From Actinomycetota bacterium (GTDB lineage: Bacteria; Actinomycetota; Acidimicrobiia; Acidimicrobiales; RAAP-2), in the NCBI GenBank assembly GCA_021324355.1, contig JAJPJD010000045.1:1-64000 (forward strand): a stretch of DNA of 64,000 bases, in the 5' to 3' direction. The notes under the pieces are model-generated. The model saw nothing but the letters and a program-made list of their open reading frames with translations. It did no database searches and was not told the DNA's origin. The number at the start of each line of letters is the position of its first letter. Positions within the stretch are counted from its first letter, which is position 1. Positions 2,595 through 54,373 of the stretch are shown piece after piece. A program made the position numbers and the translations under genes.

Positions 2595-3770
2595 CTAACC
2601 GACCTGGTTTCCGTCGCTGTGGGGTTCCCGCCGGGCGATGATGTGCACATCGATGGCGGTCCGGGCAGCCAGCCGGGAGACCTTCCGCACCACCGAGCCT
2701 CCCCCAAGGAGCTCTTGAAGTCGGTGCCGTTGGCTGGAGCCGATCACGATCTGGGTGATCTGGTGCGCCCGAGCGAAGTCGACGATCGCCCGGGCCGGAT
2801 CGTCGGCCTCCAGGTCCGTCCACTGACCACCGACATCCTCGGCCAGGTGGCGCAGCCTGGTCAGCAGCTCTTCCTCCGAACGACTGGGTTCGGCGGTACG
2901 CACGTGGACGACGTGCAGGTCGGCCTTGGTCCGAGCGGCCATTCGTGCTGCCCGGCGGAGAATGGTCTCGGTCCCGGGAGCAGCGATCAGCGCGACCAGG
3001 ATGCGCTCGCTCGTGTCCCAAACAATGTCGGTCTGATAGCTACGCAGGTGCTCCAAGAGTTCCTCGTCGGTCTCATCAGCCAGGAAGCGGAGCGCGAGCT
3101 CGCGTAGTGCGATCAGGTTGTCCGTTCGGAAGAAGTTCTCCAGTGCCTGGGGGACCTTCTCGGGTGGGTAGATGTTACCGTGCACCATGCGCCGACGGAG
3201 CTGCCACGGGGACGAATCGACCAGCTCGATCTGGTCAGCGCTCCGCACAACCCAGTCCGGCACCCGTTCGTTGACGGTCACGCCGGTGATCGCTTCGACC
3301 GCGTCGGCAAGGCTCTCGAGGTGTTGGATGTTGACGGTAGTGATCACCTCGATCCCCTCGTCGAGCAGCTCGAAGACGTCCTGCCAGCGCTTCTCGTGCG
3401 GGCCTGACCCAGGAACATTGGTGTGGGCGAGCTCGTCGACCAACGCGACCGTTGGCGCCCTGGCCACGACAGCGGCCGTATCCATCTCCGTGAACGTTGC
3501 GCCCCGGTAGTCAACAACCTTTCGGGGGACAACCTCGAGCCCCTCGATCATCGCCTCGGTCTGCGGGCGTCCATGAGCCTCGACGAAGCCGACCACGACG
3601 TCGGTGCCGCGACCAAGACGTCGGCGCCCCTCATTGAGCATGGCGTAGGTCTTGCCGACCCCGGCTGCGGCGCCCAGATAGATCCTGAAGTGCCCACGCC
3701 GTTCGCGCTCGGGTGGCGTGGGCGCGGGCTCTTGAGCGGTCCCCCCCCGGTGATTATCGCTCCCGGTCAC
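2595..3770 (-). CDS. kdpD: Stand-alone KdpD N-terminal sensor domain plus UspA domain (split KdpD)
   Basis: 391 residues from a GTG. Residues ~25-235 are the cytoplasmic KdpD domain with its Walker A (GAAAGVGKTYAML) and Walker B-like region (VALVDELAHTN); residues ~250-375 are a UspA-like domain (GSSQRHRLQELLGGGSV). The four membrane segments and kinase core that follow in E. coli KdpD are missing; they are encoded separately at 8766-10226. It is the last gene of the kdp operon, and its start lies 17 bases inside the OB-fold gene. KdpD senses potassium limitation or ionic strength and, with KdpE, switches on kdpFABC. Here the nucleotide/Usp input half probably acts in trans on the membrane kinase. 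Short KdpD proteins occur in other bacteria, so this need not be decay. Confidence 0.9.
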   Translation of the reverse strand: MTGSDNHRGGTAQEPAPTPPERERRGHFRIYLGAAAGVGKTYAMLNEGRRRLGRGTDVVVGFVEAHGRPQTEAMIEGLEVVPRKVVDYRGATFTEMDTAAVVARAPTVALVDELAHTNVPGSGPHEKRWQDVFELLDEGIEVITTVNIQHLESLADAVEAITGVTVNERVPDWVVRSADQIELVDSSPWQLRRRMVHGNIYPPEKVPQALENFFRTDNLIALRELALRFLADETDEELLEHLRSYQTDIVWDTSERILVALIAAPGTETILRRAARMAARTKADLHVVHVRTAEPSRSEEELLTRLRHLAEDVGGQWTDLEADDPARAIVDFARAHQITQIVIGSSQRHRLQELLGGGSVVRKVSRLAARTAIDVHIIARREPHSDGNQVG

Positions 3771-4077
3771 GTCGGCCCTCGATGAGCTCGTAGTTAGGGT
3801 TCCAGATCGTCAGCTGGCCCTGTTGCACCCAGGCCGTTCCCTGGATCCGGCAACGAGCACCCACCTCGATGCCCGGAACTCGCTCCCGTCCCACAAACAC
3901 CAGGACCACCCGACCGGTTCCGTCGTCCAGCATGCAGCGGAAGCCCGAGGGTCCCCGGCCACCCCAGCCAGAGCTGGTGGCAACCACCGTGCCCGTGGTC
4001 GCCACCCGCGACCGGTGAGTCGCTGCCCGCAGGCTGGTCGCCGGCCGACGTCGCGGGGGCCCCGGGGGCGAGCTCAC
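3754..4077 (-). CDS. Small OB-fold nucleic-acid-binding-type protein inside the kdp operon
   Basis: 107 residues. A basic, Arg/Pro-rich start is followed by an OB-fold pattern from about residue 27: GTVVATSSGWG, then FRCMLDDGTGRVVLVFVGRE, then GARCRIQGTAWVQQGQLTIWNPNYELI. This matches the tRNA_anti/OB-fold proteins of actinobacteria. The ATG overlaps the kdpC stop by 4 bases and the kdpD-like start lies within its end, so it is translationally coupled to both. OB-fold genes sit beside TrkA-type potassium genes in mycobacteria (family knowledge), which makes a role tied to potassium uptake plausible. Ligand unknown: RNA, DNA or a nucleotide. Confidence 0.75.
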   Translation of the reverse strand: MSSPPGPPRRRPATSLRAATHRSRVATTGTVVATSSGWGGRGPSGFRCMLDDGTGRVVLVFVGRERVPGIEVGARCRIQGTAWVQQGQLTIWNPNYELIEGRRDRER

Positions 4078-4697
4078 CGGAGCTTGGCCAGCGCCTCGTT
4101 CAGCGACAGCACGTCGATGAACGGCGAGCCGAGAAAACCGAGCGCCGGTGGCTGGGTCTCCCGGGCGATGAGGGCGCGCAACCTCGCAGGAGCGATCCCC
4201 GTCGCCCGAGCGACCATGGGGACCTGGACCAGCGCGTCGGCCGGTGTGATGTCAGGATCGAGGCCGCTGCCCGAGGTGGTCACCAGGTCGGGAGTGGGGT
4301 CGACGCCGAGGGCGTGCCAGTAGGCCACCAAGGCCCTGGTGTCCTCGAACAAGGCTCTGGACCGAGGACCGAGGTTCGTGGCACCGGACTCGCCCTTCAC
4401 CCCGTTGGCCACCAAGGGGTTGTCCCCACCGGAGGTGTGGGTCGCCGGATCGGCTGCGTATGGCCCAGTGTCATCGGGTCGCCCGTGGAACACACAGCTC
4501 CCCAGGGGGTGGCCCGGGCACCGAACGTCCGCCCAGTTCTGACCGATCAGCGTCGATCCGTCGGCAGTGAGGGACCCATCCGCCTGGTGACGGAAGAACA
4601 ATTGCGCGACCCCCGTGCCAGCGAGCATGTACACGAAACCGCACACGACGGTGAAGAGGACCACCGCGGTGAGCGAACGGCGAAGGTTGAAGAGCAC
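4074..4697 (-). CDS. kdpC: Potassium-transporting ATPase KdpC subunit
   Basis: 207 residues from a GTG at 4697, chosen because it follows the kdpB stop by 11 bases, has a GAGG upstream, and gives the expected N-terminus (VLFNLRRSL followed by one membrane helix, TAVVLFTVVCGFVYMLAG). A longer reading from 4796 would overlap kdpB by 88 bases and add a tail alien to the family. Family landmarks are the GQNW segment, the GGDNPLVANG region, SGSGLDPDITP, and the C-terminal VLSLNEALAKL. KdpC has a single membrane helix and a periplasmic or extracellular domain; it stabilises the KdpFABC complex and supports ATP binding by KdpB. It lies between kdpB and the OB-fold gene. Confidence 0.95.
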   Translation of the reverse strand: MLFNLRRSLTAVVLFTVVCGFVYMLAGTGVAQLFFRHQADGSLTADGSTLIGQNWADVRCPGHPLGSCVFHGRPDDTGPYAADPATHTSGGDNPLVANGVKGESGATNLGPRSRALFEDTRALVAYWHALGVDPTPDLVTTSGSGLDPDITPADALVQVPMVARATGIAPARLRALIARETQPPALGFLGSPFIDVLSLNEALAKLR

Positions 4698-4708
4698 GTT
4701 CTCGACCC

Positions 4709-6792
<2,084 letters not shown>

Positions 6793-6793
<1 letters not shown>

Positions 6794-8484
6794 CAGAACA
6801 ACCTGCCGTGACTCAGCTGCTCGACGATCGGTCCGAGGGCGGTGGCCGGGAAGAACGTCAGACCGCCCACGATCAGAACCACGCCGATAGTGAGACCGAC
6901 GAACATGGGGCTGTCGGTGGGGAACGTCCCTGATGAGGCAGGGGCCACACCCTTGGCAGCCAACGACCCAGCCAGCGCCAGAGCCGGTATGAGAATTGCG
7001 AAACGACCCAGCAGCATGTCCACGGCTCCGAGCACGTTGTAGAAGGCGGAGTTGGCAGCGATGCCGGCCATTGCCGACCCGTTGTTGTTGCCCTGCGAGG
7101 TGAGTGCGTAAAGGATCTCGGTGAAGCCATGGGGACCGGCGTTCAGCGCCGCGCTTCTGCCGGCGTGCAGGGACACTGCGACCGCGGTGAGCACGAGGAC
7201 CACCAGCGGCATGGCCAGGGTCCCCAAACCGGCCAGCTTCACCTCCCTGGCCTGGATCTTCTTCCCAAGGTACTCGGGGGTCCGGCCAACCATCAGTCCG
7301 CCGATGAAGACCGCGATGATCGCGTAGATGAGCAAGGTGTAGAGCCCGCTCCCGTCACCTCCCGGAGTGACTTCGCCAAGCATCATCCCGGTGAGCAGAC
7401 CGAAGCCGCCCATCGGATTGTAGGAATCCGACGCGCTGTCAACTGCACCGTCTGAGGTCTGGGTCTGCGTCACGTTGAACAGCGCACTGGTTGTATCCCC
7501 GAAGCGGACTTCCTTTCCCTCAGTGTTACCGGTCTGCTTCTGCTGGACGCCGGCGGCTGCGACAGCTGGGTTGGGCTGGTGCTCGGCGTAGGTCGTGAAC
7601 GCAACCCAGCCACCGAAGATGACCGCCATCACAACGAGCAACGCCACGCCGTGGCGCACGCTTTTCACCATCTTGCCGAACGTGTGGGTGATTGAAACTG
7701 GGATCGACAGGGTCAGCCACATGTACAAGAAGTTGGTGAGCCCGGTCGGGTTCTCAAAGGGATGTGCCAAGTCGGCATTGAAGAACCCTCCCCCGTTGGT
7801 ACCGACCTGCATGATCGATCCCATGAACCCGGCAGGACCCCGGGGGATCGTCTGCGTCACGCCGTTCAGTGGGTCATGGATGTGGACCGGTCCGGCCAGG
7901 GTCTGCACCGCCCCCTGCCCAACGAGGACGATGCCGGCAACGAAAGAAATCGGAAGAAGGATGTAGAGAACAGCCCGCAGGATGTCGACCCAGAAGTTCC
8001 CAATCGTCGCCGAATTGCCACGGGAGAAGCCTCGGACCAAGGCGATCGCGACCGCGATACCCACCGCGGCGCTCACGAACTGCTGGACGGTCAGCACTCC
8101 GATCTGCGAGAAGTACGACATCGTCGTCTCCCCGCCGTAGTTCTGCCAGTTCGTGTTGGTGACGAACGACACAATCGTGTTGAAGCCGAGCGCCGGTGGC
8201 ACGGCACCGAGGTGCTGGGGGTTGAGCGGGAGGTGCCCCTGGACTCGAAGAAGCAGATACCCCAGGCCAAGGAACGCCGCCGAGAAGACGACCAACGACT
8301 CGGCATAACGCCTCCAGCTCTGCTCCCGCTGCGGCCCGGTCTGCAGGGCCCGGTACAGCGGGCGCTCGATCCAGGCTAGGAACTGCACACGCCCTTCGAA
8401 GACCGCCGCCATGTAGGAGCCCAGCCACCGCCAGGTCAACGCCAGCACGACGACCAGGGCGGCGAGCGTCGCAGCGAAGGTCAT
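6793..8484 (-). CDS. kdpA: Potassium-transporting ATPase KdpA subunit (channel-like)
   Basis: 563 residues from the ATG at 8484; a GTG three codons upstream is possible, but ATG matches the family start and overlaps the kdpF stop by one base (TGATG). About ten membrane helices. Selectivity-filter-like segments of the four pseudo-repeats are visible, for example [16 protein letters not shown] near residue 110, [20 protein letters not shown] near 225 and [15 protein letters not shown] near 460. KdpA forms the high-affinity potassium pathway of the complex. Second subunit of the coupled kdpF-A-B-C set. Confidence 0.97.
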
Positions 8485-8573
8485 CAGAACCACTCGGGCT
8501 TGAACATGGCCACGCCCAGATAGACGACGAGGATGACCGAGACCGCCAGCAGCAGTCCCTCCACGACGGTCAC
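8484..8573 (-). CDS. kdpF: KdpF small stabilising subunit
   Basis: 29 residues, found by reading the minus strand immediately upstream of kdpA. It reads VTVVEGLLLAVSVILVVYL, then GVAMFKPEWF: one membrane helix ending in the (K/R)PE(R/W)F-type terminus typical of KdpF. The stop TGA shares its last base with the kdpA ATG. The GTG start at 8573 overlaps the stop of the next upstream micro-ORF (GTGA); a GTG at 8564 is an alternative. KdpF is a lipid-like stabiliser of the KdpABC complex. Confidence 0.88.
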   Translation of the reverse strand: MTVVEGLLLAVSVILVVYLGVAMFKPEWF

Positions 8574-8653
8574 AGCCGGTCCAGGCTCCAGATCAAACCC
8601 AGCATCGCTGCGGCGAACCCCGCCACCCCGATCACGGAGAGAACGTCAGCCAC
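8570..8653 (-). CDS. 27-residue single-helix membrane micropeptide, first gene of the kdp operon
   Basis: Reading the minus strand upstream of kdpF gives a GTG-started frame: VADVLSVIGVAGFAAAMLG, then LIWSLDRL. That is one membrane helix with a short C-terminal D-R-L tail. An AGGA lies about 7 bases before the GTG, and the stop overlaps the kdpF start by 4 bases, the same coupling seen through the operon. I recall similar short ORFs (MAD..., ending in a charged residue plus R-L) upstream of kdpF in other bacteria, but could not check this. Most likely a second tiny accessory subunit, or a leader peptide, of the Kdp complex. Confidence 0.6.
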   Translation of the reverse strand: MADVLSVIGVAGFAAAMLGLIWSLDRL

Positions 8654-8686
8654 CCCACCATCCTGGGAGCCAGGATCTTCATGTGA

Positions 8687-8715
8687 TCTGAAAAAGCTGG
8701 CGCTTGTCTGAAAAA
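8687..8715. promoter_or_regulatory. Direct repeats in the divergent kdp promoter region, candidate KdpE site
   Basis: The nine bases TCTGAAAAA occur at 8687-8695 and again at 8707-8715, 20 bases apart, in the 112-base gap between the kdp operon and the sensor kinase. OmpR-family regulators such as KdpE typically bind tandem direct repeats on one face of the helix, and 20 bases is close to two turns. Assignment to KdpE is inference from position. Confidence 0.4.
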
Positions 8716-8765
8716 TTTCTTGCTGATCGCTCCTTGAGCTGGGAGCGGTGTAGGACAATGAGGTT

Positions 8766-10226
8766 GTGGCAGTGCGGATCCTCCGGTCGTCGGTCGGAGT
8801 CCTGACCGCGCTGGCGCTCGGCGCGTGCATGCTGCCCTTCCGCGCCCACCTGAGCATCGCGACTGCCGGGTTGGTTCTGGTCGTCCCGGTCGTGGTCGGG
8901 GTGATCGCCGGCGGGTACCTGGGGGGCATTGCTGCCGTAGCCACTGGCTTCTTGGTGTACGACTTCGCCTACATACCGCCGTACAACACGCTCACGGTCG
9001 GCGCAGTTCAGAACTGGGCACCGCTCGGGGTGTACGTCGTAATCATGCTGCTCGTCGCACAGGTCGTCGCCCACCTGCGAGCGGCGAGGGCGAGCGCCCA
9101 GCGCCGGGAGATTGAAGCTCGCCGCCTCTACACACTCTCCGAGCTGACCGTCGAAGGAGGCTCTGTCGAGCAGCTCCTCGACACGGTGGTCCGAGCTATC
9201 GCCACCGTCTTCGAAGTCGAGGGGGTGGCAGTCCTGCTGCCCAACGACGACCGGCTGGAAGTCGTGGCCAGCCAAGGAAGGGCGCTTGATCAAACGGAGC
9301 TGGAGGGCCTGGCTCCCGGCCCAGGCGTACCGGTTGCAGTGGGTGCCGGTCCCGTCGGTGCCGACCTGCGGACCTTGGTCCTCTCGGCAGCCAGCGGGCC
9401 GGTGGGCATGCTCGCCCTGCGGGGATGGTCGGGTCCCCGCTCTGACGATCAGTTGCTGCAAACCTTTGCCAACCATGCCGCCTTGGCGCTCGAACGAGTC
9501 CAACTGCGGACCAAAGCCATGCGGACCGAGCTCCTCGAAGAAGTGGAGAAGGTCCGCCGGGATCTCATCGGTGCCGTCTCCCATGACCTTCGGACCCCGC
9601 TGGCAACCATGAAGGTGGCGTCTTCGACGCTGCTTGGATCACGCTCTCGGCTTTCCGAGCAGGAGCTCGACGAGCTGTACACGCTGCTCGATGTCCAGAC
9701 CGATCGGCTTTCGCGTCTGGTGACCAGCCTCCTCGATCTCAACCGGTACGAACGAGGAGTGCTCCGGGTCGAGCGTCGACCCTGTACAGTTCTCGACCTC
9801 ATCGGCGATGCTCTGGCTGGGATGCGGGCCACGCTGGGCGATCGGCAGGTCGACCTCAGAGTGCCTAACGCTCTTCCAACGGTCGACATCGACCCGATTC
9901 TCATGAGCCAGGTGGTGACGAATCTGTTGGACAATGCCGACCGCCATTCGCCGCAAGGAGAGGCAGTCGAGATCTCGGCAGAGATGCTCGATGGCCGGGT
10001 TCGCCTCTGCGTGACCGACCGCGGATGCGGCGTACCGCTAGATGAACGCGAGTCGGTTTTCCACAGCTTCGTGCGGTTCGATACCGGAGGGCGCGCCGGA
10101 CTAGGGCTGGCGATCGCCCGAGCCTTCGTCGAAGCGCACGGTGAGCGGATCTGGGTCGAGGACGCCCCTGGTAACGGCGCCCGGTTTGTGGTGACCATGA
10201 CGCCGAGTCAAGTTGCCGAGGTCTGA
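8766..10226 (+). CDS. kdpD: Membrane sensor histidine kinase, C-terminal half of a split KdpD
   Basis: 486 residues from a GTG. Residues ~7-105 hold three to four membrane segments of the DUF4118 type, the module found in the middle of KdpD. Residues ~120-250 form a GAF-like domain. The dimerisation/phosphoacceptor helix follows with SHDLRTPL (His 273), then the ATPase domain: N box NLLDNADRHSP, G1 DRGCGVP, G2 GLGLAIARAF. The KdpD N-terminal Walker/Usp region is absent and is supplied by 2595-3770. The gene diverges from kdpFABC and its stop is one base from the start of the response regulator. Together these strongly indicate the potassium-limitation two-component system. Confidence 0.92.
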   Translation: MAVRILRSSVGVLTALALGACMLPFRAHLSIATAGLVLVVPVVVGVIAGGYLGGIAAVATGFLVYDFAYIPPYNTLTVGAVQNWAPLGVYVVIMLLVAQVVAHLRAARASAQRREIEARRLYTLSELTVEGGSVEQLLDTVVRAIATVFEVEGVAVLLPNDDRLEVVASQGRALDQTELEGLAPGPGVPVAVGAGPVGADLRTLVLSAASGPVGMLALRGWSGPRSDDQLLQTFANHAALALERVQLRTKAMRTELLEEVEKVRRDLIGAVSHDLRTPLATMKVASSTLLGSRSRLSEQELDELYTLLDVQTDRLSRLVTSLLDLNRYERGVLRVERRPCTVLDLIGDALAGMRATLGDRQVDLRVPNALPTVDIDPILMSQVVTNLLDNADRHSPQGEAVEISAEMLDGRVRLCVTDRGCGVPLDERESVFHSFVRFDTGGRAGLGLAIARAFVEAHGERIWVEDAPGNGARFVVTMTPSQVAEV

Positions 10227-11741: not shown

Positions 11742-12347
11742 CTAGCCTCCTTCCTCGCATCCCGAGCGGTGCATTCCAGGCAGCATCGCGCCGCAGCCCG
11801 GACATACCAGTTGAGCCCAGCAGGCCGGGTCCCCGCCCAGGTCCTCAGGATCGCTCTCGACTTCATCCCCAATCGGCGGCTCGACACTCAGGAAGTCGAG
11901 CACGAAACGCGCGCTGCGGGTTCCTTCGACCCGGTGGTCGACGAGGGGTGCCAGCACCAGCGACGCGCCGGCCGGCAGAACCTGGGACGTGGGTGGCGTC
12001 GTCCACAGCCGCACCTCGAGCTCGCCTTCGATCACCGTGAGCAGCCCCCACGTACCGGCGGGTAGGCGGTGCCGGCGTCCGAGCCCCTCGGGCATCGAGC
12101 TCCGGTCCCAGACCGGCGACGTCCGTAGAAGGCGGACCCGATCTGGAAGCTCCGCCCGATCACACAGCCGGCAGCTCAACGCCGAGCCGAGGCGCGAGGA
12201 CCGACCCTGCTCGGTCAGGACCCAGCTGCGCAGCTGAAAGGGCGGACGGTGGTAGAGGTGTTGACGGTGCCCGCAGTCGAGGTCGGCCACCCAGTTCCCC
12301 TCGACGTCTTGGTGGAAGCCGACGATCGTTCGCTCCACGTCAGCCAT
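11742..12347 (-). CDS. DUF3565-DUF1971 two-domain protein with zinc-ribbon-like tail
   Basis: 201 residues from the ATG at 12347 (MADVERTIVGFHQD); a longer frame exists but this start gives the clean family N-terminus. Residues 5-70 match DUF3565: IVGFHQDVEGNWVADLDCGHRQH, then RPPFQLRSWVLTEQGR, then CRLC. Residues ~75-165 match the cupin-like DUF1971 domain also seen in TehB-type tellurite proteins: SPVW...MPEGLGRRHRLPAGTWG, HRVEG, RFVLDF. The tail has CPGC and a further Cys. The start overlaps the ClC stop by 8 bases, so the two are co-translated. Function is not established for either domain; DUF1971 proteins have been linked to tellurite or oxyanion response. Confidence 0.75.
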   Translation of the reverse strand: MADVERTIVGFHQDVEGNWVADLDCGHRQHLYHRPPFQLRSWVLTEQGRSSRLGSALSCRLCDRAELPDRVRLLRTSPVWDRSSMPEGLGRRHRLPAGTWGLLTVIEGELEVRLWTTPPTSQVLPAGASLVLAPLVDHRVEGTRSARFVLDFLSVEPPIGDEVESDPEDLGGDPACWAQLVCPGCGAMLPGMHRSGCEEGG

Positions 12348-14445
12348 CCGTCCCGTCGAGGTCGGCCTTCGCTTCAGCCTCGCGGTTGCGCAGAAGCCGC
12401 AGCGTGAGCACCCGTTCGGCATGGCGCTCCTCTTCTAGGAGCTTCTGCCGTGCGTCGAGCAAGTCGAACTGGGTGACGAGGCCATCCAGCCGTCGCGGCT
12501 CCCCTCGATCGACGACCGGGAGTACGCCGAGGCCGAGCGCTGCCATGCGATCGGCAACGGATCGGAGGATCTCGTCCGGGTGGGCCACAGCGGTGGGAAG
12601 CATCATCGCGTCCGCGACTGTCTTCGGTCCAGCGGTGCGACCCGAGAGCACGGCGGACCATGGCAGCACACCGACCAGCTCGCCTTCGTCGTTGAGCACC
12701 GGATACAAGCGCTGACGGCGCTCGGCAGACCCTTCGGGCAAGGCACGGTAGAGGTCATCGAGCTTGCGCGAGGGCTCCACCGTGAAGACGTCGGTGTCCA
12801 TCACCTCTCGGACGAAGGTGGCCTCCAATGGGTCCACCGCGTACTCCCTCATGACATGAAAACCCCGACGAGCGACCTTCTCGGTGAGGATCGACCGCTT
12901 CAGCGTCAGGACGCTCACCAGGTGAGCGACCGTTGCCGAGACGAGAAGCGCAAGCAAGCTGTTCTGATCATGGGTGAGCTCAAAGGAAAAAATGATCGCG
13001 GTGAATGGCGAACGGGTGACCCCGCCGAGCGAGCCAGCCATGCCAATCAGTGCGAAACTGCCGACCGAGGCACCAGGCAAGACATGTCCGAACATCCCAC
13101 CGATTGCCGCTCCCATCATGAGAATCGGGGCAAGGATCCCGCCGCTGGTCCCTCCTCCGAGGCCAGCCGCCCAGATGGTCATCTTCACTACGAACAAGAG
13201 CGCCAGGGCTCCGACTCCAACTTTCCCGAGGAGCTCCAGGTGGATCGTGTTGTAACCGACCCCGAGCGCTCTCGGGTCGATGAGTCCACCCAGGCCGATG
13301 ATGAGCCCGCCGATGAGCGGCCACCACATCCAGTGCAGATGGCCGCTGAGCTTCTTGAACAGGTCCTCGCACCCGTAGACGGCCTCGGTCATCACCCATG
13401 CTCCAAAGCCCGTCGCGATGCCGATCACAGCCGCGCCCCCGAGCGCCACACCTCCGAGTGGCCCGTGGGAGGGAACCGGGAACAACGGCTGGGGAGAGAC
13501 TAGGCCCGCGTGCGCCATGACCATCCGCAGGGCGTCTGCAGTCGCAGCCGCCAGGCCGATCAGGACCATCGAGCGGGGCTTGAGCTCGAAAACCAGAAGT
13601 TCCACCCCGAACAGAGTCGCCGCCACGGGCGTGCCGAACACTGCGCTCATGCCGGCCGCAGCACCGGCGACCAAAAGCGCTCTTCGCTGCGAGCCGGTCA
13701 GCCGGAACAGCTGACCGACGATCGATCCCACTGCTCCGCCAGTGAGGATGATTGGTCCCTCGGCTCCGAACGGGCCACCGGTCCCGATGCTGATGGCCGA
13801 TGAGATTGGCTTCAAGATCGCGAGCCGCGGCTGTACTCTCGACCCGTTGATCAAAATGTTCTCCATGGCCTCGGGGATGCCATGACCACGGATCTGCTCG
13901 GACCCGTACCGGGCCATGAGTCCAACGATCAGTCCACCACCAATGGGGATGACCAGGGTGATAGCTCCGAGTGTGCTCGCGTTCGGAGAGACCAGATGGA
14001 CACTCAGACGCTGGTAGTAGAAGACATTCGTGAAGAACCCGATCATGTCGAGCAGGGCGAGCGAGACGCCCGCACCCAGAACGCCCACCACCACGCCCAG
14101 CGGCACCAGGCGGAGCAGGGCGGGGCTCGCGGTGAAGTCGCCAAGTGCTCGCTCAGAGGTATCGCGCGGTCGGACGTCGGAGCCGAGATAGCTCTGGACA
14201 CCCGCAGGCCGATCAGCGCTCGGCACGTCCAGAAGAACGGTCTTGGCGTCAGAGGAGTCGGCGACCGGAGCCGGCGGCCCTTGCCTATCCCCGCCCTCCG
14301 GCGCTGCGTCGGCGCCCTGCGGCGCACGCTCATGCCCAGGGCATTCCGGAGCAGTCTCGCCTGTGCGGTCTCTGGGTGCTCTGGCGTCGTGGCTCACGCT
14401 GACCAACCGAACAGGCCGGCGCGACAGCCCTGGAGGGAAAGGCAA
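12340..14445 (-). CDS. ClC-family chloride channel/transporter with C-terminal CBS pair
   Basis: 701 residues. A ~90-residue hydrophilic Arg/Pro/Asp-rich N-terminus precedes about ten membrane helices. ClC signatures are visible: GHGIPEAMENI (anion-site GxGIP), GPFGAEGPII (GxEGP with the gating Glu kept), and GGGTSGGILAPILMMGA (GGxxxP). Two CBS domains follow (~560-690), suggesting nucleotide regulation. It moves chloride, either as a channel or as a Cl-/H+ exchanger; the exchanger proton Glu cannot be judged by eye. The gene diverges from marR-DUF488 across a 31-base gap holding a palindrome, so the two are probably co-regulated. A GTG a few codons inside (VSHDAR) is an alternative start. 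Confidence 0.92.
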   Translation of the reverse strand: MPFPPGLSRRPVRLVSVSHDARAPRDRTGETAPECPGHERAPQGADAAPEGGDRQGPPAPVADSSDAKTVLLDVPSADRPAGVQSYLGSDVRPRDTSERALGDFTASPALLRLVPLGVVVGVLGAGVSLALLDMIGFFTNVFYYQRLSVHLVSPNASTLGAITLVIPIGGGLIVGLMARYGSEQIRGHGIPEAMENILINGSRVQPRLAILKPISSAISIGTGGPFGAEGPIILTGGAVGSIVGQLFRLTGSQRRALLVAGAAAGMSAVFGTPVAATLFGVELLVFELKPRSMVLIGLAAATADALRMVMAHAGLVSPQPLFPVPSHGPLGGVALGGAAVIGIATGFGAWVMTEAVYGCEDLFKKLSGHLHWMWWPLIGGLIIGLGGLIDPRALGVGYNTIHLELLGKVGVGALALLFVVKMTIWAAGLGGGTSGGILAPILMMGAAIGGMFGHVLPGASVGSFALIGMAGSLGGVTRSPFTAIIFSFELTHDQNSLLALLVSATVAHLVSVLTLKRSILTEKVARRGFHVMREYAVDPLEATFVREVMDTDVFTVEPSRKLDDLYRALPEGSAERRQRLYPVLNDEGELVGVLPWSAVLSGRTAGPKTVADAMMLPTAVAHPDEILRSVADRMAALGLGVLPVVDRGEPRRLDGLVTQFDLLDARQKLLEEERHAERVLTLRLLRNREAEAKADLDGTDG

Positions 14446-17076: not shown

Positions 17077-19197
17077 ATGGTGGCGACGAGGTCTGGGAAC
17101 GACGGGTGGCCCCCTGGACCCTCGGTTCTTGGCCGGCAACGGACCTGCAGGGCAAGGGGCTCAGGGGAGGACCCCATCCGGGAGCGGTGGTTCCGGTGGT
17201 CGGCCGTCTGGCTCGCGTGGGTGGCACTGGGCATCGTCATGGTCCTGGTCGGCGACCCGGCAGCCAGTGCCGCAAGCCTGCCGGTCACCCGGATCTCCGG
17301 CACCGACGCCATCGGGACCTCGATCGCCGTGTCCCAGCAGGAGTTCCCGACCGACGGATCGGCCAACGCTGTGGTCCTCGCCCGCTCTGACTTCTTTGCC
17401 GATGCTCTGGCCGGAGGGCCGTTGGCCGCCAAGCTGGGAGGGCCACTGCTCATCACCCCTGGTGCCGACCAGAGCTCGACGATCGACCCCCGGGTGCTGG
17501 CCGAGATCGAGCGGGTGCTCCCGGTCGGAAAGACCGTCTACATCCTGGGCGGTGACCTGGCGCTCAGCCCCACCATCGACACCACGCTCCAGGCGCTCGG
17601 GTACCTGACCCAGCGAATCGCGGGGGCCGACGAGTTTGCCACCGCGGTCGACATCGCCGAGGCGCTCGGGAACCCCACAACGATCTTCGAGGCCACCGGC
17701 CTCAGCTTCCAGGACGCGCTGTCAGCGGTCCCGGCCGCCATCGCCGCTCACGGTGCGATCCTGCTCACCGACGGCAGCACCCAGGCGCCCGAGACCGCCG
17801 CCTACCTGACCAACCACCCAGGTGATACCCGCTACGCGATCGGCGGGCCCCTGGCCGCCTACGGCGCTGACCCAGGCGCCACCCCCGTCTACGGCCAGGA
17901 CCCCTACGGAACCTCGGCCGCGGTCGCGTCCACCTTCTTCCCGTCTGCCAGCGTCTTCGGCGCTGCCACCGGGACCAACTTCCCCGACGCGCTCTCCGGC
18001 GGAGTCTTCATGGGCGAACCCACCACAAAGGGCCCGATGCTCCTCGTCCTGCCGTCGGGACCGCTGCCAACGACAATCGCGACCTACCTCGCCTCGGTAG
18101 CCCCAACCCTCACGCAGGGGTACCTGTTCGGGGGGCCGCTCGCGGTTGACGACGCCGTCCTCGCGGAGTTGGAAGCAGCCACCGGCGGGGGCACGGCTCC
18201 GCCACCACCTCCGACACCGTCGCCACTCGGTGTGGTCACGGTCGCACTACCCCAAGGCACCGTCGGCACCGCCTACTCGGCCACCCTGTCGGCAACCGGA
18301 GGGACGCCGCCGTACTCGTGGACGATCACCTCTGGCTCCCTACCCGGCGGGCTCAGTTTGGCTTCGAGCGGGGTGATCTCTGGAACCCCGACCAGCTCGG
18401 GCACCGCGACCTTCACCGTACAGGTCGCCGACTCGACCACCCCCATACCGCAGACAGCGAGCCAAGAACTGTCGATCACGGTGACGCCGGCGCCCTTCAC
18501 CGGCGAGATGTCTCCAAACTGGTCTGGCTATGTGGTCCCATCGAGCCAGATCTTCACCGAGGTGAGCGGGATCTGGACTGTGCCGACCCTCGACTGTGCC
18601 GCCACTCCGAACGCCGGCGCTTCGATCTGGGTCGGGACCGGCGGTGAGGAGTATCCGAACGGGGGATCTTCGGGCGTCCTGCTCCAGACCGGCGTCACCA
18701 CCGACTGCGTCGACGGCATCCAGCAGGACAACGGCTGGTGGGAGGAGTTCCCGACCACGCCCGAGATCTCCTTCTCCGGCTTCCCCGTTTCCCCGGGGGA
18801 CACCATCCAGGCCACCGTCTTCGAGGGAACCACCGGGGCGTGGGAGACTCGGGTGGACGACCTTTCGACCGGCCTCTCGGGAGTCATGGTCACCGACGAG
18901 GGCTGGGGGGTGCTCACCGATGGCAGCACGACCTTCCCGGAGCAGGGGTCGACCGCCGGTCTGTCGTACTCGGGTGGCTACACCGCCGAATGGATCGTGG
19001 AAGATTACGAGGTATCGAGCGGGGAGCTCGTCGCGTTCGCCGATTACGGCACCGTCTCGTTCTCAGGGCTGACGACCAACCTTCGCTCGTCGGACCTCAC
19101 GCCGAACGATGCGGTCGAGATGGTCCAGAGTGGAGTCGTGCTCTCGACACCATCGCCACCAGCGGGTGATGGCTTCTCTCTGAGCTACACAGGCTGA
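17077..19197 (+). CDS. Cell-wall-anchored G1 (eqolisin-type) peptidase with CWB2 repeats
   Basis: 706 residues from the ATG at 17077; the true start may differ, but the signal peptide (~39-66, WSAVWLAWVALGIVMVLVGDPAASA) must be included. Three cell-wall-binding type 2 repeats follow (TRISGTDAIGTSIAV, QRIAGADEFATAVDIAEAL, PVYGQDPYGTSAAV), then a PPPPPTPSP linker, one putative Ig domain (~383-468, PQGTVGTAYSATLSATGG) and a G1 peptidase domain (~476-704). In the last, NWSGY, SIWVGTGGEE, VLLQTGV (candidate catalytic Gln) and TAEWIVE (candidate catalytic Glu) fit the Gln/Glu dyad of pepstatin-insensitive acid proteases. Likely an acid-active protease held at the cell surface. Confidence 0.88.
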   Translation: MVATRSGNDGWPPGPSVLGRQRTCRARGSGEDPIRERWFRWSAVWLAWVALGIVMVLVGDPAASAASLPVTRISGTDAIGTSIAVSQQEFPTDGSANAVVLARSDFFADALAGGPLAAKLGGPLLITPGADQSSTIDPRVLAEIERVLPVGKTVYILGGDLALSPTIDTTLQALGYLTQRIAGADEFATAVDIAEALGNPTTIFEATGLSFQDALSAVPAAIAAHGAILLTDGSTQAPETAAYLTNHPGDTRYAIGGPLAAYGADPGATPVYGQDPYGTSAAVASTFFPSASVFGAATGTNFPDALSGGVFMGEPTTKGPMLLVLPSGPLPTTIATYLASVAPTLTQGYLFGGPLAVDDAVLAELEAATGGGTAPPPPPTPSPLGVVTVALPQGTVGTAYSATLSATGGTPPYSWTITSGSLPGGLSLASSGVISGTPTSSGTATFTVQVADSTTPIPQTASQELSITVTPAPFTGEMSPNWSGYVVPSSQIFTEVSGIWTVPTLDCAATPNAGASIWVGTGGEEYPNGGSSGVLLQTGVTTDCVDGIQQDNGWWEEFPTTPEISFSGFPVSPGDTIQATVFEGTTGAWETRVDDLSTGLSGVMVTDEGWGVLTDGSTTFPEQGSTAGLSYSGGYTAEWIVEDYEVSSGELVAFADYGTVSFSGLTTNLRSSDLTPNDAVEMVQSGVVLSTPSPPAGDGFSLSYTG

Positions 19198-31113: not shown

Positions 31114-32568
31114 ATGCTGAGCACCAAGGTCCCACTCGACGAGCTCGGAGACGACCGGGCACTCGTGCCCACCTATGCCAACCGGGGGCTGGCCCAGCCG
31201 GTCGCCCGCTACGAACTCCCCGAAGAGGGCCTCGAGCCCTCTGTCGCCTACCAGCTGATCCACGACGAGCTCAGCCTGGACGGCAACCCCACCTTGAACC
31301 TGGCCTCCTTCGTCACCACCTGGATGGACGAGGAAGCCGAGCGGCTGATGGCCGAGACCATCAACAAGAACGCGATCGACTGGGACGAGTACCCCCAGAC
31401 GGTCGAGCTCCAGGACCGGTGTGTGAACATGCTGGCGCGCCTCTACGGTGCCCCCGAGGAGCGCCGCAGCGTGGGCTGCGCCACCGTCGGCTCCTCGGAG
31501 GCGATCCACCTGGCCGGCCTGGCCATGAAGTGGCGGTGGCGGTCCGCTCGCCAGGCGGCAGGGCAGACCACTGCACGGCCCAACCTGGTGATGGGCGCCA
31601 ACGTGCAGGTGTGCTGGGAGAAGTTTGCCCGCTATTTCGACGTAGAGCCGCGCTACGTCCCGCTGCGCGAGGACCGGTTCGTGATCGGCGTCGAGGAGGC
31701 GATGGAGCTGGTCGACGAGCACACCATCGGCGTGGTCGGCATCCTCGGCAGCACCTACACCGGGGAGTACGAGCCCATTGCGGAGCTGGCGGCGGCCCTC
31801 GACCGGCGCCAGGCGGACGACGGCCTCGATGTGCCCCTCCACGTCGACGCGGCGAGCGGCGGTTTCGTGGCCCCCTTCCTCCAGCCCGACCTGGTGTGGG
31901 ACTTCCGGCTCGAGCGGGTGCGCTCGATCAACGTGTCGGGCCACAAGTACGGGCTGGTCTACCCCGGAGTGGGGTGGGTGCTGTGGCGGGATCCGAGCGA
32001 CCTGCCAGACGAGCTCATCTTCGAGGTCGACTACCTGGGCGGGAGCCATGCCAACTTCAGCCTCAACTTCTCCCGCGGCGCATCGCAGATCGTCGCCCAG
32101 TACTACAACCTCCTGCGCCTCGGCCGATCCGGCTACCGCCAGATCATGGAGAGCCTGGCCGGCACCGCTCGATGGCTGGCCGATGCGCTCGCCAGCCGGC
32201 CCGAGCTGCAAGTGATCGCGGGCGGGACCGACCTGCCGGTGGTGTGCTTTGCCCTACCGGGCTTGGAGCCCGGGGCGCCCACTGCACTCTCGGCGATCCT
32301 GCGCCGGCGGGGCTGGATCGTCCCCGCCTACAAGCTGGCCCCGAAGGCCGACCACATCGAGGTGCTGCGGGTGGTGGTCCGAGAGGGTCTCAGCCGGGAC
32401 TTGGCCCGATCCCTGGTTGCCGACATCGACGCCGCCCTCCACGAGCTGGCCTCGGGAACCCCCCCGGCGCAGCAGCCCGGTCCGGGGGCGACGCCAGCAC
32501 CCCGGAGCCGCCGGCCAACGCGGCCAGCCCGCCCCCGCCCGGACCGCAAGACCCGGGCGGTGTGCTGA
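31114..32568 (+). CDS. gad: Glutamate decarboxylase (PLP-dependent)
   Basis: 484 residues. Group II PLP decarboxylase of the GadB type: NLASFVTTWMDEEAERLM (~60-77), ATVGSSEAIHLAGL (~125), HVDAASGGFVAPF (~245, Asp for the PLP nitrogen) and SGHKYG with the PLP Lys 278. The start ATG has GGAGG at proper spacing. The last ~35 residues are a disordered Pro/Arg-rich tail (PGATPAPRSRRPTRPARP) not seen in GadB. It consumes a cytosolic proton to make GABA from glutamate, the core of glutamate-dependent acid resistance. No dedicated antiporter is adjacent; the APC permease at 52427 could serve, but is distant. Confidence 0.95.
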   Translation: MLSTKVPLDELGDDRALVPTYANRGLAQPVARYELPEEGLEPSVAYQLIHDELSLDGNPTLNLASFVTTWMDEEAERLMAETINKNAIDWDEYPQTVELQDRCVNMLARLYGAPEERRSVGCATVGSSEAIHLAGLAMKWRWRSARQAAGQTTARPNLVMGANVQVCWEKFARYFDVEPRYVPLREDRFVIGVEEAMELVDEHTIGVVGILGSTYTGEYEPIAELAAALDRRQADDGLDVPLHVDAASGGFVAPFLQPDLVWDFRLERVRSINVSGHKYGLVYPGVGWVLWRDPSDLPDELIFEVDYLGGSHANFSLNFSRGASQIVAQYYNLLRLGRSGYRQIMESLAGTARWLADALASRPELQVIAGGTDLPVVCFALPGLEPGAPTALSAILRRRGWIVPAYKLAPKADHIEVLRVVVREGLSRDLARSLVADIDAALHELASGTPPAQQPGPGATPAPRSRRPTRPARPRPDRKTRAVC

Positions 32569-49405: not shown

Positions 49406-49875
49406 CAGGCTCCCTCCCGGCTCGATCGAGCGGCATCGAGGACCGCCTGCACAATGTTGTGGTACCCGGTGCACCGGCAAAGGTTTCCTTCGAGGCCCTC
49501 TCGGACGGCAGCCTCATCGAGATCAGGGTTCTCTTTGACGAGCGAGACAGCAGCCATGACCATGCCGGGGGTGCAGTAACCGCACTGCAGCCCGTGGTGT
49601 TCGCGGAACGCTTGCTGCATCGGATGGAGCTCGTCGCCGCTGGCCAGCCCCTCGATAGTGGTGATCGAGTGGCCGTCGGCCTGCGCGGCCAGCACCGTGC
49701 AGCTCTTCACTGACTCCCCATCGAGCAGGACCGTGCACGCACCGCAGCTCGTCGTGTCACACCCGACATTGGTGCCCGTCAGGCCCAGCTCTTCACGGAG
49801 GAAGTAGACGAGGAGCGTTCGCGGCTCGACGTCGCGCTCATGGGCTTCCCCGTTCACCTCCAGCTTCACCTTCAT
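49402..49875 (-). CDS. coxS: [2Fe-2S] small subunit of a CODH/xanthine-dehydrogenase-type enzyme
   Basis: 157 residues from the ATG at 49875. Plant-type cluster ligands [16 protein letters not shown] plus CTVLAAQ, and the second cluster [11 protein letters not shown] with [11 protein letters not shown]. Two [2Fe-2S] clusters carry electrons from the molybdenum site to FAD. ATG/TGA overlap with coxL upstream and GTG/TGA overlap with coxM downstream. Confidence 0.95.
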
Positions 49876-52172
49876 GACTTCCCCTTCGCTTGTTCGATCG
49901 CTTTCCACACTCGCAATGGTGACGTTGGCATGTCTACATGTCGGACGCCAAGATGTCTCAGGGCGTCACAGACAGCGTTCTGGACCGCCGGGGTCGATCC
50001 GATCGTGCCAGACTCTCCGATCCCCTTGGCTCCCAGTGGGTTGATGGGCGTCGGTGTCTCCATCGAATAGGTCTCGAAACTGGGTAGCTCGGCCGCCGAG
50101 ACGAACTCGTAGTCGGCAAGGTTCGCGGTGATCGGATTGCCCTGCTCGTCGTAGCACATCTCCTCCATCAGGGCCTGCGCCACACCCTGAGCCAAGCCGC
50201 CGTGAATCTGACCCTCGGCGATCAACGGGTTGACCAATCGACCAGCGTCGTCGACCGCCACGATCCGCTTGAGCGTCACGCCTCCGGTCTCGGTGTCTAC
50301 TTCGGCAACCACCAGGTGGGCTCCGAACGGGAAAGTGGCGCCTGACGCGGCAAAGTCGACCTCAGCCGAAAGACCTCCATCGCCGCTCGCTCGCGCTAGC
50401 TCCGCCCACGTCTTCGACGCGCTGGGCGTCCCAGCCACCTGAAATCGGCCGCTCTGCTTGTCAAGCTCGATGTCGTTCGGGTTCGCCTCGAGCAGCTCAG
50501 CAGCAAGCTTCCTCGCCTTGTCAACTACCTGTTCGGCGGCTTGGAACACCGCCACTCCGCCGGACTGCAACGACTTGGATCCGAAGGTGCCGACCCCTCG
50601 GGGAACGAGGTCGGTGTCGCCGTGGATGACTTCGACATCTTCGATCGCGATCCCGAGCTGGTCAGCAACGAGCTGGGACCACGAGGTCACGTGACCCTGG
50701 CCGTGGGGCGATGTGCCGGTCCGGACCCGGGCCCGGCCATCGGCAAGCACTTCCACCGACCCGAACTCGCTACCCGGGATGCCGTTGGTTATCTCAACGT
50801 AGGTCGATAGCCCGATCCCCAGCTGCTTGGCTTCGCCGGCTTCCCGGCGTCGCTGCTGCTCGGCTCGAAGCTCCGAATAGCCCGCAGCCTCCAGCACCCT
50901 GTCGAGGGCGGCCTCGTAATCACCGACGTCATAGGTGGTCCCGGTTGGCGTCGTGAATGGGAAGCGATCCCGTCCAACTAAGTTCTTCCGCCGCACCTCG
51001 GCGGGGTCCATGCCGATCTCGGCCGCAAAGATGTCCACCATTCGCTCAATCGCCGCTGTGGCTTCCGGTCGACCGGCGCCCCGGTAGGCCACTGTCGGGT
51101 TGGTATTGGTCGCGACCGAGGTATCGGCGAAGTACACCCTCTCGATGTCGTAGACACCGGTCAGCATCGTTCTCGTCATCAGGGGGAGAAAGGCCCCGAA
51201 AGCCGGATAAGCGCCGGCATCTTGGATCACCGAGAGCTTGTACGCGAGCAGGCGGCCGTCCCGGGTGCCTCCCAGCTCTGCCAGCTGGACCTGAGCGCGC
51301 CCATGGCCGAGTGAGAGCATCGACTCACTGCGGGTCTCCACCCATCGAGCGGGCCGGCCGATCTTCCGCGCGATCCAGGCAACAAACAGCTCCTCAGGGT
51401 AGGCGCCGATCTTGGCGCCGAAACCACCACCAACGTCGGGCGCGACCGCCCGGACCTGATCGTCCGCCAAACCAAAGATCTGAGCCAGGCTCGCCTTCAC
51501 CCCATGCGGTGCCTGGGTGGTGGTCCACTGGGTCAGATGACCGTCGTCCCACCTCGACGCGGCCGCTCGAACCTCGAGTGGGCAGGGCGCCACCCTCTGG
51601 TTGACGATGCGCTGGCGAACGACGACCTCGCAGCCTGCGAACATCTCGGGCGGCTCGGTGGCGGCCTCCGGCGGAACCATGCCGACGCTCACCAGGTCCT
51701 CCGGCATCCGCAACACCACGTTGGTGCCGGCCGCCTCGTGCACGAGGATGTCGCTGCCAGCGGCAGCTTCAGGATCGATGACTACCGGAAACGGCTCGTA
51801 GTCGACCAGTACGAGCTCGGCAGCGTCCATCGCCTGCTCCCGAGTCTCGGCCACCACCGCCGCGACGAGGTCTCCAACAAACCGGACAACCCCGTCGGCC
51901 AACCAGGGGCGGACCATCGCTGGGTTGGCGAAAGGGGCGCCCGGCGGCATCGGTGGCAGGTCGACCTCGGCGGCCGTGAAGACTGCAACGACGCCTGGCG
52001 AGCGCAGCGCCTCTGTGCTGTCGATTGAGTGGATCCTCGCGTGCGCCATCGGGGACCGCACGTAGACGATGTGGACGGCGCCTTCCAGCGGCAGGTCGTC
52101 GACGTAGGTCCCGCCGGTCGTGAGGAACTTCGGGTCCTCCCGGCGCAAGACGCGGTTGCCAAGGATGCTCAT
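49872..52172 (-). CDS. coxL: Molybdopterin large subunit, form II CoxL-like
   Basis: 766 residues. The active-site loop reads AYRGAGR (Tyr 363), the form II signature, rather than AYxCSFR of genuine aerobic CO dehydrogenase. Cofactor contacts: GGGFGAK (~245), HGQGH (~480) and GIGESG with the catalytic Glu (~730). It is the first gene of coxL-coxS-coxM. The assembly genes coxD-G are not in the window. Form II enzymes have been linked to weak CO oxidation but more likely act on aldehydes, purines or other hydroxylatable substrates, so the substrate is open. Confidence 0.93.
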
Positions 52173-52426: not shown

Positions 52427-54373
52427 CTACCCGGCTGCGTGCTCCGGACGACCCTCCGAGCTCAGCGTGGGTCCGGTCCCAGGTACAGCCTCCATCCGGC
52501 TCGACTCGATCGCCCGACGCATCTCCCGGAGCTCTTCGGTCTCATAGCCGCTGTGAACGGACCACAAGAAAGCGATAAGTCCGATCCCTGCCGCGATCAG
52601 GTCGCTGTAGGGGAAGGCCACCGTCGGGTGCGTGGAGTTGAACCCGTACTCCCCGTAGTAGGAGAGCAGGAGCAGCGACAGGATTAGGAAGATCAGCCAC
52701 CACGCTCGGTCGATCTGCTTCCGACCTTCTTCATTGGACAGCAGCCAGGTCGCCGCCGAGACCAGGACAACTGCGGCGGCGAAGGCCACGTAGTAGGTGC
52801 CCTCGGTCCATGAGCCGTGCACCGGCAACGTGCCAGTGCGCAGGACCCAACCACCTTTGGCCGCGATGTAGAGCCACACTCCGAGGAAGGCGAACCCGAG
52901 GGTCACTCCTTGTCCTTGAGTCATGTACCCGCGCGATGGCGCGTAGTACCAAAGGTAGATGACGAATGCAAAGAATGCAGCCGTCATCACCGTGATCAGT
53001 GTCGAGAACCCACTCCAGTAGACAACCTCGGTCGCTGCGATGAAGCCCAAGGCCGAGAGCACCCACATAGCTGGCAATCGCACCGGACGATGCCAGTCCG
53101 GTGCGATGCGGCGCAGCACCGCGACCCCCGATCCGCCCATGATGTAGGTGAGCACCGTGGTCGAGGTGATGAACCCCACAATCCCATACCAGCTGGGCTG
53201 GCGGATGAAGAACAGCCCGCCGACGAAGAACGATGCGATCAGGGCCGCCCAGGGAATGCCGAAGCGGTTCATCACCTGCAGTCCCGGCGGGAAGAGGCGC
53301 TGGACCGACATGCCGTAGAAGGTCCGCGTGGACGTGCCGGTGTAGACCCAGCCGGTGCCAGCTGGCGAGATCACCGCGTCCCAGATCAGTAGAGCGGCGA
53401 AGCCGGCTAGGGCACCGATGCCTGCCGCGTGCAGCTCCCGATAGAACGGGCCGGTGGCCCAGGCCGATGTACTCAGCGCCTTCCAGTCACCAATCTTGAC
53501 GCCGAGGCTCCCCCACCGGATTCCACCGGTGAAGGCCACTTGGAGCAGCACGTACAGGACAATTGCGATTAGTACCGACAGGATGGTCGCCCGGGGAACG
53601 TCACGCTGGGGCCGTCGAGCCTCCCCTGCGTACTCGAGCGCCTGGCGGAACCCGAGATAGGCAAAGACGATCCCGGTGGTCGACACCGCCTCGAAGATCG
53701 GCGCCTTGCCGAGCGGCGCGAACCCCCCGACGCTCGACCCGTAGTTCGAGCCCCTGAACGCAGCGAACACGAAGCAGAAGGTGAGGGTCGGGATAATCAG
53801 CTTCCACGCCACCACCCACCGGTTGACCTCGGAGAGCAGCCGGATGCCGAAGAAGTTCAGGAAGAAGAACAGGAGCAGGAAGCCAAAGGCCAGCATCACT
53901 CCCTTCGGCCACGCCAGGATCGTGCTCTTGGGTGGGATCAGACCGATGTTCGGGAACTTCGACGACAGATAGGTGACCGACGCCTCCGCCTCGATGGCCG
54001 GAACTGACACCGCCGACAGCAAATATGCCCACCCGAGCAACATCCCGGCATACCCACCATGGGTGAGTTGCGGGTACCGGGCAAGAGCCCCGGTTCGGGG
54101 CAGCATGCCCGCAATCTCCATGTAAGTCAGCGCGATGAAGAGCACGCAGATGCCGCCGATGATCCACGACACCATGGACGCCGGACCGGCGGTGGCGTCG
54201 GCCGAGAGCACCGCGAACAGCCAGCCCGAGCCAATGATCGCCCCCAAGGAGAGCGCGGTCAGTTGGGTCAGACCCATTGTGCGACGGAGCTTGCGGTCCG
54301 ACTGCTCGAACCCAGCGAGACCGGTCCCCGAGGCAGGCTCTACAACGGTCGGACGTTCCTGCGCGAGTGCCAT
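52427..54373 (-). CDS. APC-family amino acid/polyamine permease
   Basis: 648 residues with about 12-14 helices. The APC start motif is clear (LTQLTALSLGAIIGSGWLFA, ~35-54), with YMEIAGMLPRTGALARYP (~103-120) and GFRQALEYAGEARRPQRDVPRATI (~240-263). The ~130-residue C-terminal extension with two extra helices is longer than usual. A secondary transporter for an amino acid, probably with protons; glutamate/GABA exchange cannot be excluded but is not shown. A hairpin follows its stop. Confidence 0.92.
   Translation of the reverse strand: MALAQERPTVVEPASGTGLAGFEQSDRKLRRTMGLTQLTALSLGAIIGSGWLFAVLSADATAGPASMVSWIIGGICVLFIALTYMEIAGMLPRTGALARYPQLTHGGYAGMLLGWAYLLSAVSVPAIEAEASVTYLSSKFPNIGLIPPKSTILAWPKGVMLAFGFLLLFFFLNFFGIRLLSEVNRWVVAWKLIIPTLTFCFVFAAFRGSNYGSSVGGFAPLGKAPIFEAVSTTGIVFAYLGFRQALEYAGEARRPQRDVPRATILSVLIAIVLYVLLQVAFTGGIRWGSLGVKIGDWKALSTSAWATGPFYRELHAAGIGALAGFAALLIWDAVISPAGTGWVYTGTSTRTFYGMSVQRLFPPGLQVMNRFGIPWAALIASFFVGGLFFIRQPSWYGIVGFITSTTVLTYIMGGSGVAVLRRIAPDWHRPVRLPAMWVLSALGFIAATEVVYWSGFSTLITVMTAAFFAFVIYLWYYAPSRGYMTQGQGVTLGFAFLGVWLYIAAKGGWVLRTGTLPVHGSWTEGTYYVAFAAAVVLVSAATWLLSNEEGRKQIDRAWWLIFLILSLLLLSYYGEYGFNSTHPTVAFPYSDLIAAGIGLIAFLWSVHSGYETEELREMRRAIESSRMEAVPGTGPTLSSEGRPEHAAG

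Follow-up and report, generated by a model that had tools for sequence, protein, structure and literature searches.

A predicted wall-tethered G1 peptidase whose gene appears to join a reusable CWB2 carrier to a catalytic domain of another subfamily

What is the role of a G1 peptidase domain on a chain that also carries cell-wall-binding repeats, and do the two parts of such a gene share one history? The question is raised by a gene in a 64,000-nucleotide stretch of contig JAJPJD010000045.1 (assembly GCA_021324355.1, an uncultured, soil-type Actinomycetota bacterium of the order Acidimicrobiales), referred to as the window in the following. A preliminary description had placed three CWB2 repeats, an Ig domain and an eqolisin-type catalytic domain in one chain, and translation and Pfam searches bear out its coordinates and these domains (Table 1). 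Our reading, to which we assign a probability of roughly 0.7, is that the gene encodes an exported, wall-held G1 endopeptidase, that it is a chimera, and that its carrier is one of a set displaying different enzymes.

Table 1. Layout of the gene and its predicted product in the window
Feature	Position	Strand	Basis
Whole gene, pre-protein of 706 aa	17077..19197	+	translates without stop
Probable signal peptide, residues about 37-66	17185..17274	+	read from sequence
CWB2 repeat 1	17290..17577	+	
CWB2 repeat 2	17614..17850	+	
CWB2 repeat 3	17890..18159	+	
Pro-rich linker, residues 371-386	18187..18234	+	
He_PIG Ig-like domain, residues 387-470	18235..18486	+	Pfam
Inferred recombination junction	18476..18513	+	from the end of nucleotide similarity to the start of the G1 match at 18514
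G1 (eqolisin, Peptidase_A4) catalytic domain	18514..19155	+	Pfam and fold match
Catalytic Gln Q537 (SGP Gln53)	18685..18687	+	alignment
Insertion of about 23 aa, residues about 600-622	18874..18942	+	alignment
E638, Glu of TAEW, non-catalytic	18988..18990	+	alignment
Catalytic Glu E642 (SGP Glu136)	19000..19002	+	alignment

The three tandem CWB2 (PF04122) repeats were matched by the Pfam-A model CW_binding_2 with an E value of 1.4e-39 for the whole protein, the Ig-like domain by He_PIG (6.1e-13), and residues 480-693 by Peptidase_A4 (3.2e-28), all far above the Pfam gathering scores. In phmmer searches, the N-terminal half matched CWB2 proteins of C. difficile and the C-terminal half aspergillopepsin II. 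The best NCBIfam match, the SlpA S-layer model, was rejected because it reached 54 bits against a cut-off of 650. According to PMC4973711, three CWB2 repeats are required in C. difficile, where the ligand is PSII, and a conserved Ile-Leu-Leu motif is required in each repeat; in the window protein, this motif reads PLL, ILL and MLL in repeats 1, 2 and 3 and is thus exact in repeat 2 only.

The start codon is uncertain, as an in-frame ATG at 17077 is followed by an in-frame GTG at 17080; these are the only in-frame starts ahead of the hydrophobic stretch within the stretch examined, and starts at 17221 or 17239 would truncate it. The putative signal peptide, as read from the sequence, has a basic start, a hydrophobic core and an AASAAS end and lies ahead of repeat 1, and the N-terminal layout of a relative (L047) is similar. 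Given these features and their counterpart in L047, export of the protein is likely.

The catalytic dyad of G1 peptidases is Gln53/Glu136 in SGP and Gln133/Glu219 in AGP (PMC3009609 and PMC6154417). Residues of the window protein were assigned by counting along printed profile alignments to the PDB sequences 1s2b and 1y43_B; searched against PDB sequences, a profile of 69 G1 domains matched aspergillopepsin II and scytalidopepsin B. In 1s2b numbering, SGP Glu136 is the Glu that ends A-E-F-I-I-E; in 1y43_B, the Glu that matches AGP E219 likewise ends A-E-W-I-V-E (offset verified on Q133). Q537 aligns with SGP Gln53 and E642 with SGP Glu136, both being invariant in 69 of 69 aligned G1 domains, and by alignment the catalytic dyad is Q537/E642. 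The Gln of LLQTG that had been named as catalytic is this Q537. The Glu of TAEW, which had been proposed as its partner, was wrong by four residues; this position, E638, lies in a column that is only nearly invariant among the 69 aligned domains and holds Asp in L040 and L045. A loss of the Gln/Glu pair in alignment with known G1 enzymes, which would have spoken against the proposed family, was not seen, and the pair is intact. The hallmark glycines 8, 41, 44 and 55, the importance of which is discussed in PMC6154417, are kept as G484, G520, G523 and G539. A Cys pair (C507, C544) is common to the G1 subfamily of the window protein, and the insertion of about 23 residues ahead of the catalytic strand is common to the subfamily of L062-L065 and absent from the relatives that share the whole domain order (see below).

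The modelled G1 domain (pLDDT 74.5, pTM 0.80) has the beta-sandwich fold of SGP and AGP. Its best match was 2ifw (SGP with inhibitor), both with Foldseek (E 2.5e-12, TM 0.69/0.78) and with VIA-align (Z 23.5, rmsd 2.9, 194 residues aligned), while pLDDT fell under 50 for residues 607-629, in or adjoining the insertion. A full-length model from three sequences was discarded (pTM 0.28). Sequence and model together give good support to a G1 peptidase with a wall tether.

Two known systems invite comparison. Members of MEROPS G1/PF01828 (2ifw, 1y43 and pepG1 of Alicyclobacillus) resemble the window protein in fold, Q/E dyad and the hallmark Gly and Trp, whereas the window protein adds a wall anchor, the insertion before the catalytic strand and the Cys pair, and has its catalytic domain at the C-terminus with no propeptide recognised. 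The cysteine proteases Cwp84 and Cwp13 of C. difficile likewise combine a protease with a tandem CWB2 trio (PMC4973711), but the window protein is a predicted glutamic peptidase of an actinobacterium, and PSII is a polymer of C. difficile.

How widespread is this combination? G1 domains were present in 23 of 61 genomes in a sample of the same genus, family and order and in 14 of 396 sampled across the phylum (own genome counted in both), but in none of 14 control genomes, and the genus mates G001, G002 and G005 had no G1 match. The full order CWB2-He_PIG-G1 was found in 3 of 172 family genomes, namely the own genome, G006 (two genes) and G018. In a fourth genome, G003, the CWB2 part of such a gene (L035/L059/L069) lies in another frame, which is either a genuine frameshift or an assembly error. 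The scaffold mates are L034 and L047 of G006, L046 of G018 and the frameshifted L035 of G003; the He_PIG domain of L047 was not scored by Pfam at E 0.01, but the region is still 63% identical to that of the window protein. Long partial matches without a G1 domain are also present, for example in G002, G003 and G005. The architecture, which the preliminary description had called unusual, is indeed rare, but it is not unique, since it recurs in three other family genomes. With E 1e-15 as the limit, the G1 subfamily of the window protein occurred in 6 of 395 genomes of the class; a profile at E 1e-30 detected it in 12 of 397 genomes of the order (own genome counted in both).

Other arrangements of G1 domains were also encountered. 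In L040:1048-3315 (G028), the order is reversed, with the G1 domain followed by three C-terminal CWB2 repeats. In L025, L026, L028, L029, L036, L044 and L197, the G1 domain is fused to repeats of type GYWLVASDGGIFSFG, which had no Pfam match over the cut-off in the four proteins scanned (L025, L029, L036 and L197). The own genome has a second G1 gene (L002; G000 contig C59, 61033-61254 and beyond), in which the domain is split by a fibronectin-III-like insert; this fn3 is under the cut-off, and the Q and E motifs are retained on either side. A MAG of Candidatus Dormiibacterota (L091) contains two adjacent G1 genes of the scaffold mates' G1 subfamily, at least one of them with He_PIG.

The two halves of the window protein appear to have different histories. 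Compared with L034, L046 and L047, identity is 78-80% in the CWB2 part and 61-70% in He_PIG, but only 34-35% in the G1 domain, while the mates are 51-58% identical among themselves in this domain. The nucleotide similarity of the gene to all four mates stops at 18476-18484, shortly before the G1 domain. In a tree of 35 CWB2 modules (each spanning 270 or more of 304 residues, with modules contained in another one left out), the window protein falls into a clade with three mates of the same genus (support 100/98). In a tree of 74 G1 domains (at least 150 aa, not contained in another row), it stands apart from the mates, beside L062 (G360), a member of another family of the order with 69% identity; L197 (G1105), L063, L064 and G1 domains from another genus of the own family are further neighbours, and the closest fork holding the window protein has an SH-aLRT of 90 and is not starred. 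Forcing the G1 domains of all five proteins with this domain order into one clade was 199 log-likelihood units worse (AU p 6.5e-5), for a group chosen after the pairwise identity table had been seen. The scaffold mates thus share the domain order of the window protein with a G1 domain of another subfamily, whereas L062 and L197 share its G1 subfamily, the insertion being present in L062-L065 and visible in L197 as well; no CWB2 was seen in L062, the locus of which is cut by a contig end, nor in L197, which has GYW-type repeats and He_PIG instead. Judged from these comparisons, the gene appears to be a chimera of a lineage-specific CWB2-He_PIG carrier and a G1 domain of another subfamily.

It should be noted that L197 joins He_PIG to the G1 subfamily of the window protein, and therefore the exchange may have included He_PIG. 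The He_PIG domain of the window protein is nearest to those of L035 and L034 of the same genus (73%). A He_PIG tree for placing the junction (60 of 109 rows used) had too few columns and gave no resolution. By eye, the catalytic stretch is similar to aspergillopepsin, which might suggest a transfer from fungi; among the genomes compared, however, its closest relatives belong to the same order.

Might the G1 domain never have been exchanged, being instead the ancestral partner that diverged fast in this lineage, or an old paralogue? In favour of this, a single MAG carries the exact chimera, the two genes of G006 show that paralogues of the architecture occur, and no mate shows synteny with the surroundings of the window gene. 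In fact, the window gene has no common nucleotide flanks with L056-L059, nor do these among themselves beyond the gene, and for this reason replacement in place cannot be demonstrated. However, fast divergence does not yield 69% identity to the G1 domain of another family together with a common insertion and Cys pair, the clade with the scaffold mates is rejected by the AU test, and an old CWB2-He_PIG-G1 paralogue would still require one past exchange, so that a history free of exchange is decidedly improbable. A single sighting in a draft MAG of 64 contigs (96% complete) could also reflect a faulty assembly. Nevertheless, the junction is in frame and lies within an inter-domain linker, the contig carrying it is 66.5 kb long, and exact identity with the relatives tested extends over no more than 9-12 nt near the junction, which is shorter than usual assembly overlaps and makes an artefact very unlikely. 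An exchange of the catalytic domain is thus the preferred history.

The carrier is not confined to this peptidase. The own genome encodes four more proteins with CWB2 modules 67-70% identical to that of the window protein. One of them (L054:1-3228; G000 contig C20) consists of Pro-kuma_activ, TIG and a C-terminal CWB2 trio with 70% identity, and its head is a sedolisin (S53; match to PDB sedolisin, E 4e-16); no other Pro-kuma_activ gene was found in the own genome, and among the 14 controls the family occurred in Sulfolobus acidocaldarius only. The module on C15 is combined with a choice-of-anchor Q domain, those on C45 and C61 with heads without an assigned family, and C21 has a more divergent CWB2 triple. 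In relatives, modules of this type carry GH3 (L076), GH43 (L078) and a second sedolisin (L070). Among the 35 distinct modules, the trio is C-terminal in 28 and N-terminal in 7. In L192:1396-3246 (G018), an N-terminal CWB2 trio is followed by a stretch that resembles an HNH-type nuclease by eye and has no Pfam match. Because the same module carries a sedolisin and other cargo within one genome, CWB2 would act as a general-purpose socket at the wall, into which one surface enzyme or another can be fitted.

Our working model is as follows. The protein would be exported, and its triple CWB2 anchor, by analogy with C. difficile, would bind a wall polymer non-covalently, with the Ig domain serving as a spacer between anchor and catalytic domain. 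The Q537/E642 dyad would cut nearby proteins at acid pH, either feeding peptides to the cell or trimming other surface proteins. The gene would have arisen when a G1 domain of another subfamily, with its own insertion, was attached to a CWB2-He_PIG carrier at the boundary between He_PIG and G1, and the carrier module would be one of a set that shows different enzymes, the sedolisin included, in the same genome. In this model, the domains, catalytic residues, fold, domain swap and common anchor are computational results; export, wall binding, activity, acid optimum and role are inferred.

Both the activity and the role assumed here have competitors. Replacement of SGP D43 by Gly and the insertion ahead of the catalytic strand might indicate a proteolytically dead domain that now acts as a binding or structural module; yet the catalytic pair and the hallmark glycines are intact, and Gly at position 43 is deemed acceptable in PMC6154417, which renders loss of activity quite unlikely. 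More weight, though still clearly less than even, is given to the possibility that the main job is not feeding but the processing of other wall or surface-layer proteins, as by Cwp84. The same type of anchor bears a protease in C. difficile (PMC4973711), and the several CWB2 proteins of the genome are possible substrates; however, another acid protease is displayed by this genome, and the genus mates devoid of G1 matches indicate that the envelope of the genus can do without the enzyme. An active peptidase, whether it supplies peptides or trims surface proteins, is our favoured reading.

Clostridium kluyveri, Renibacterium and Burkholderia are not known as acidophiles. All three are listed with G1 homologues in PMC3009609, and therefore a G1 domain alone does not imply an acid habitat. 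The acidic habitat that the preliminary description had hinted at is nevertheless plausible, given the sedolisin on the same anchor and the peat and soil relatives: relatives of the CWB2 module come from Acidimicrobiaceae and other actinobacterial MAGs, several of them titled palsa, bog (peat) or Centralia, and a second acid peptidase (S53) on the same anchor fits a proteolytic coat for an acid habitat.

Elsewhere in the window, a ClC chloride channel with CBS domains (12340-14445, minus strand), a pyridoxal-dependent decarboxylase (31114-32568, plus strand) and an amino acid permease (52427-54373, minus strand) could belong to acid tolerance. The window also encodes Kdp potassium transport (2595-10226: KdpD/Usp sensor, P-type ATPase and KdpA and, encoded in the opposite direction, a histidine kinase) and two molybdopterin-binding large subunits of the xanthine dehydrogenase type (49872-52172, minus strand; 58672-61050, plus strand).

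We found no literature uniting the glutamic peptidases or peptidase A4 with CWB2 or cell wall binding. The catalytic domain and the anchor are each known, but we met no earlier account, as far as the literature was searched, of the two in one chain, of such chains recurring within an actinobacterial family or of a catalytic head being replaced on a conserved anchor. CWB2 proteins of C. difficile are removed from the wall by low-pH glycine (PMC4973711), and the bacterial G1 enzyme pepG1 is active at pH 2-5 and pepstatin-insensitive (PMC3009609). On these grounds, acidification might activate the protease and free it from the wall at once, so that the wall would hold a store of enzyme under mild conditions and give it up in acid; this is a long shot. 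The protein also poses a testable contradiction, as an enzyme presumed to work in acid sits on a type of anchor that is stripped with acid in C. difficile. If the idea of acid release were true, the chimera would mean that such carriers take new catalytic heads by recombination. The related MAGs, with G1, S53, GH3 and GH43 heads on one CWB2 socket, would offer a natural example of plug-in surface enzymes.
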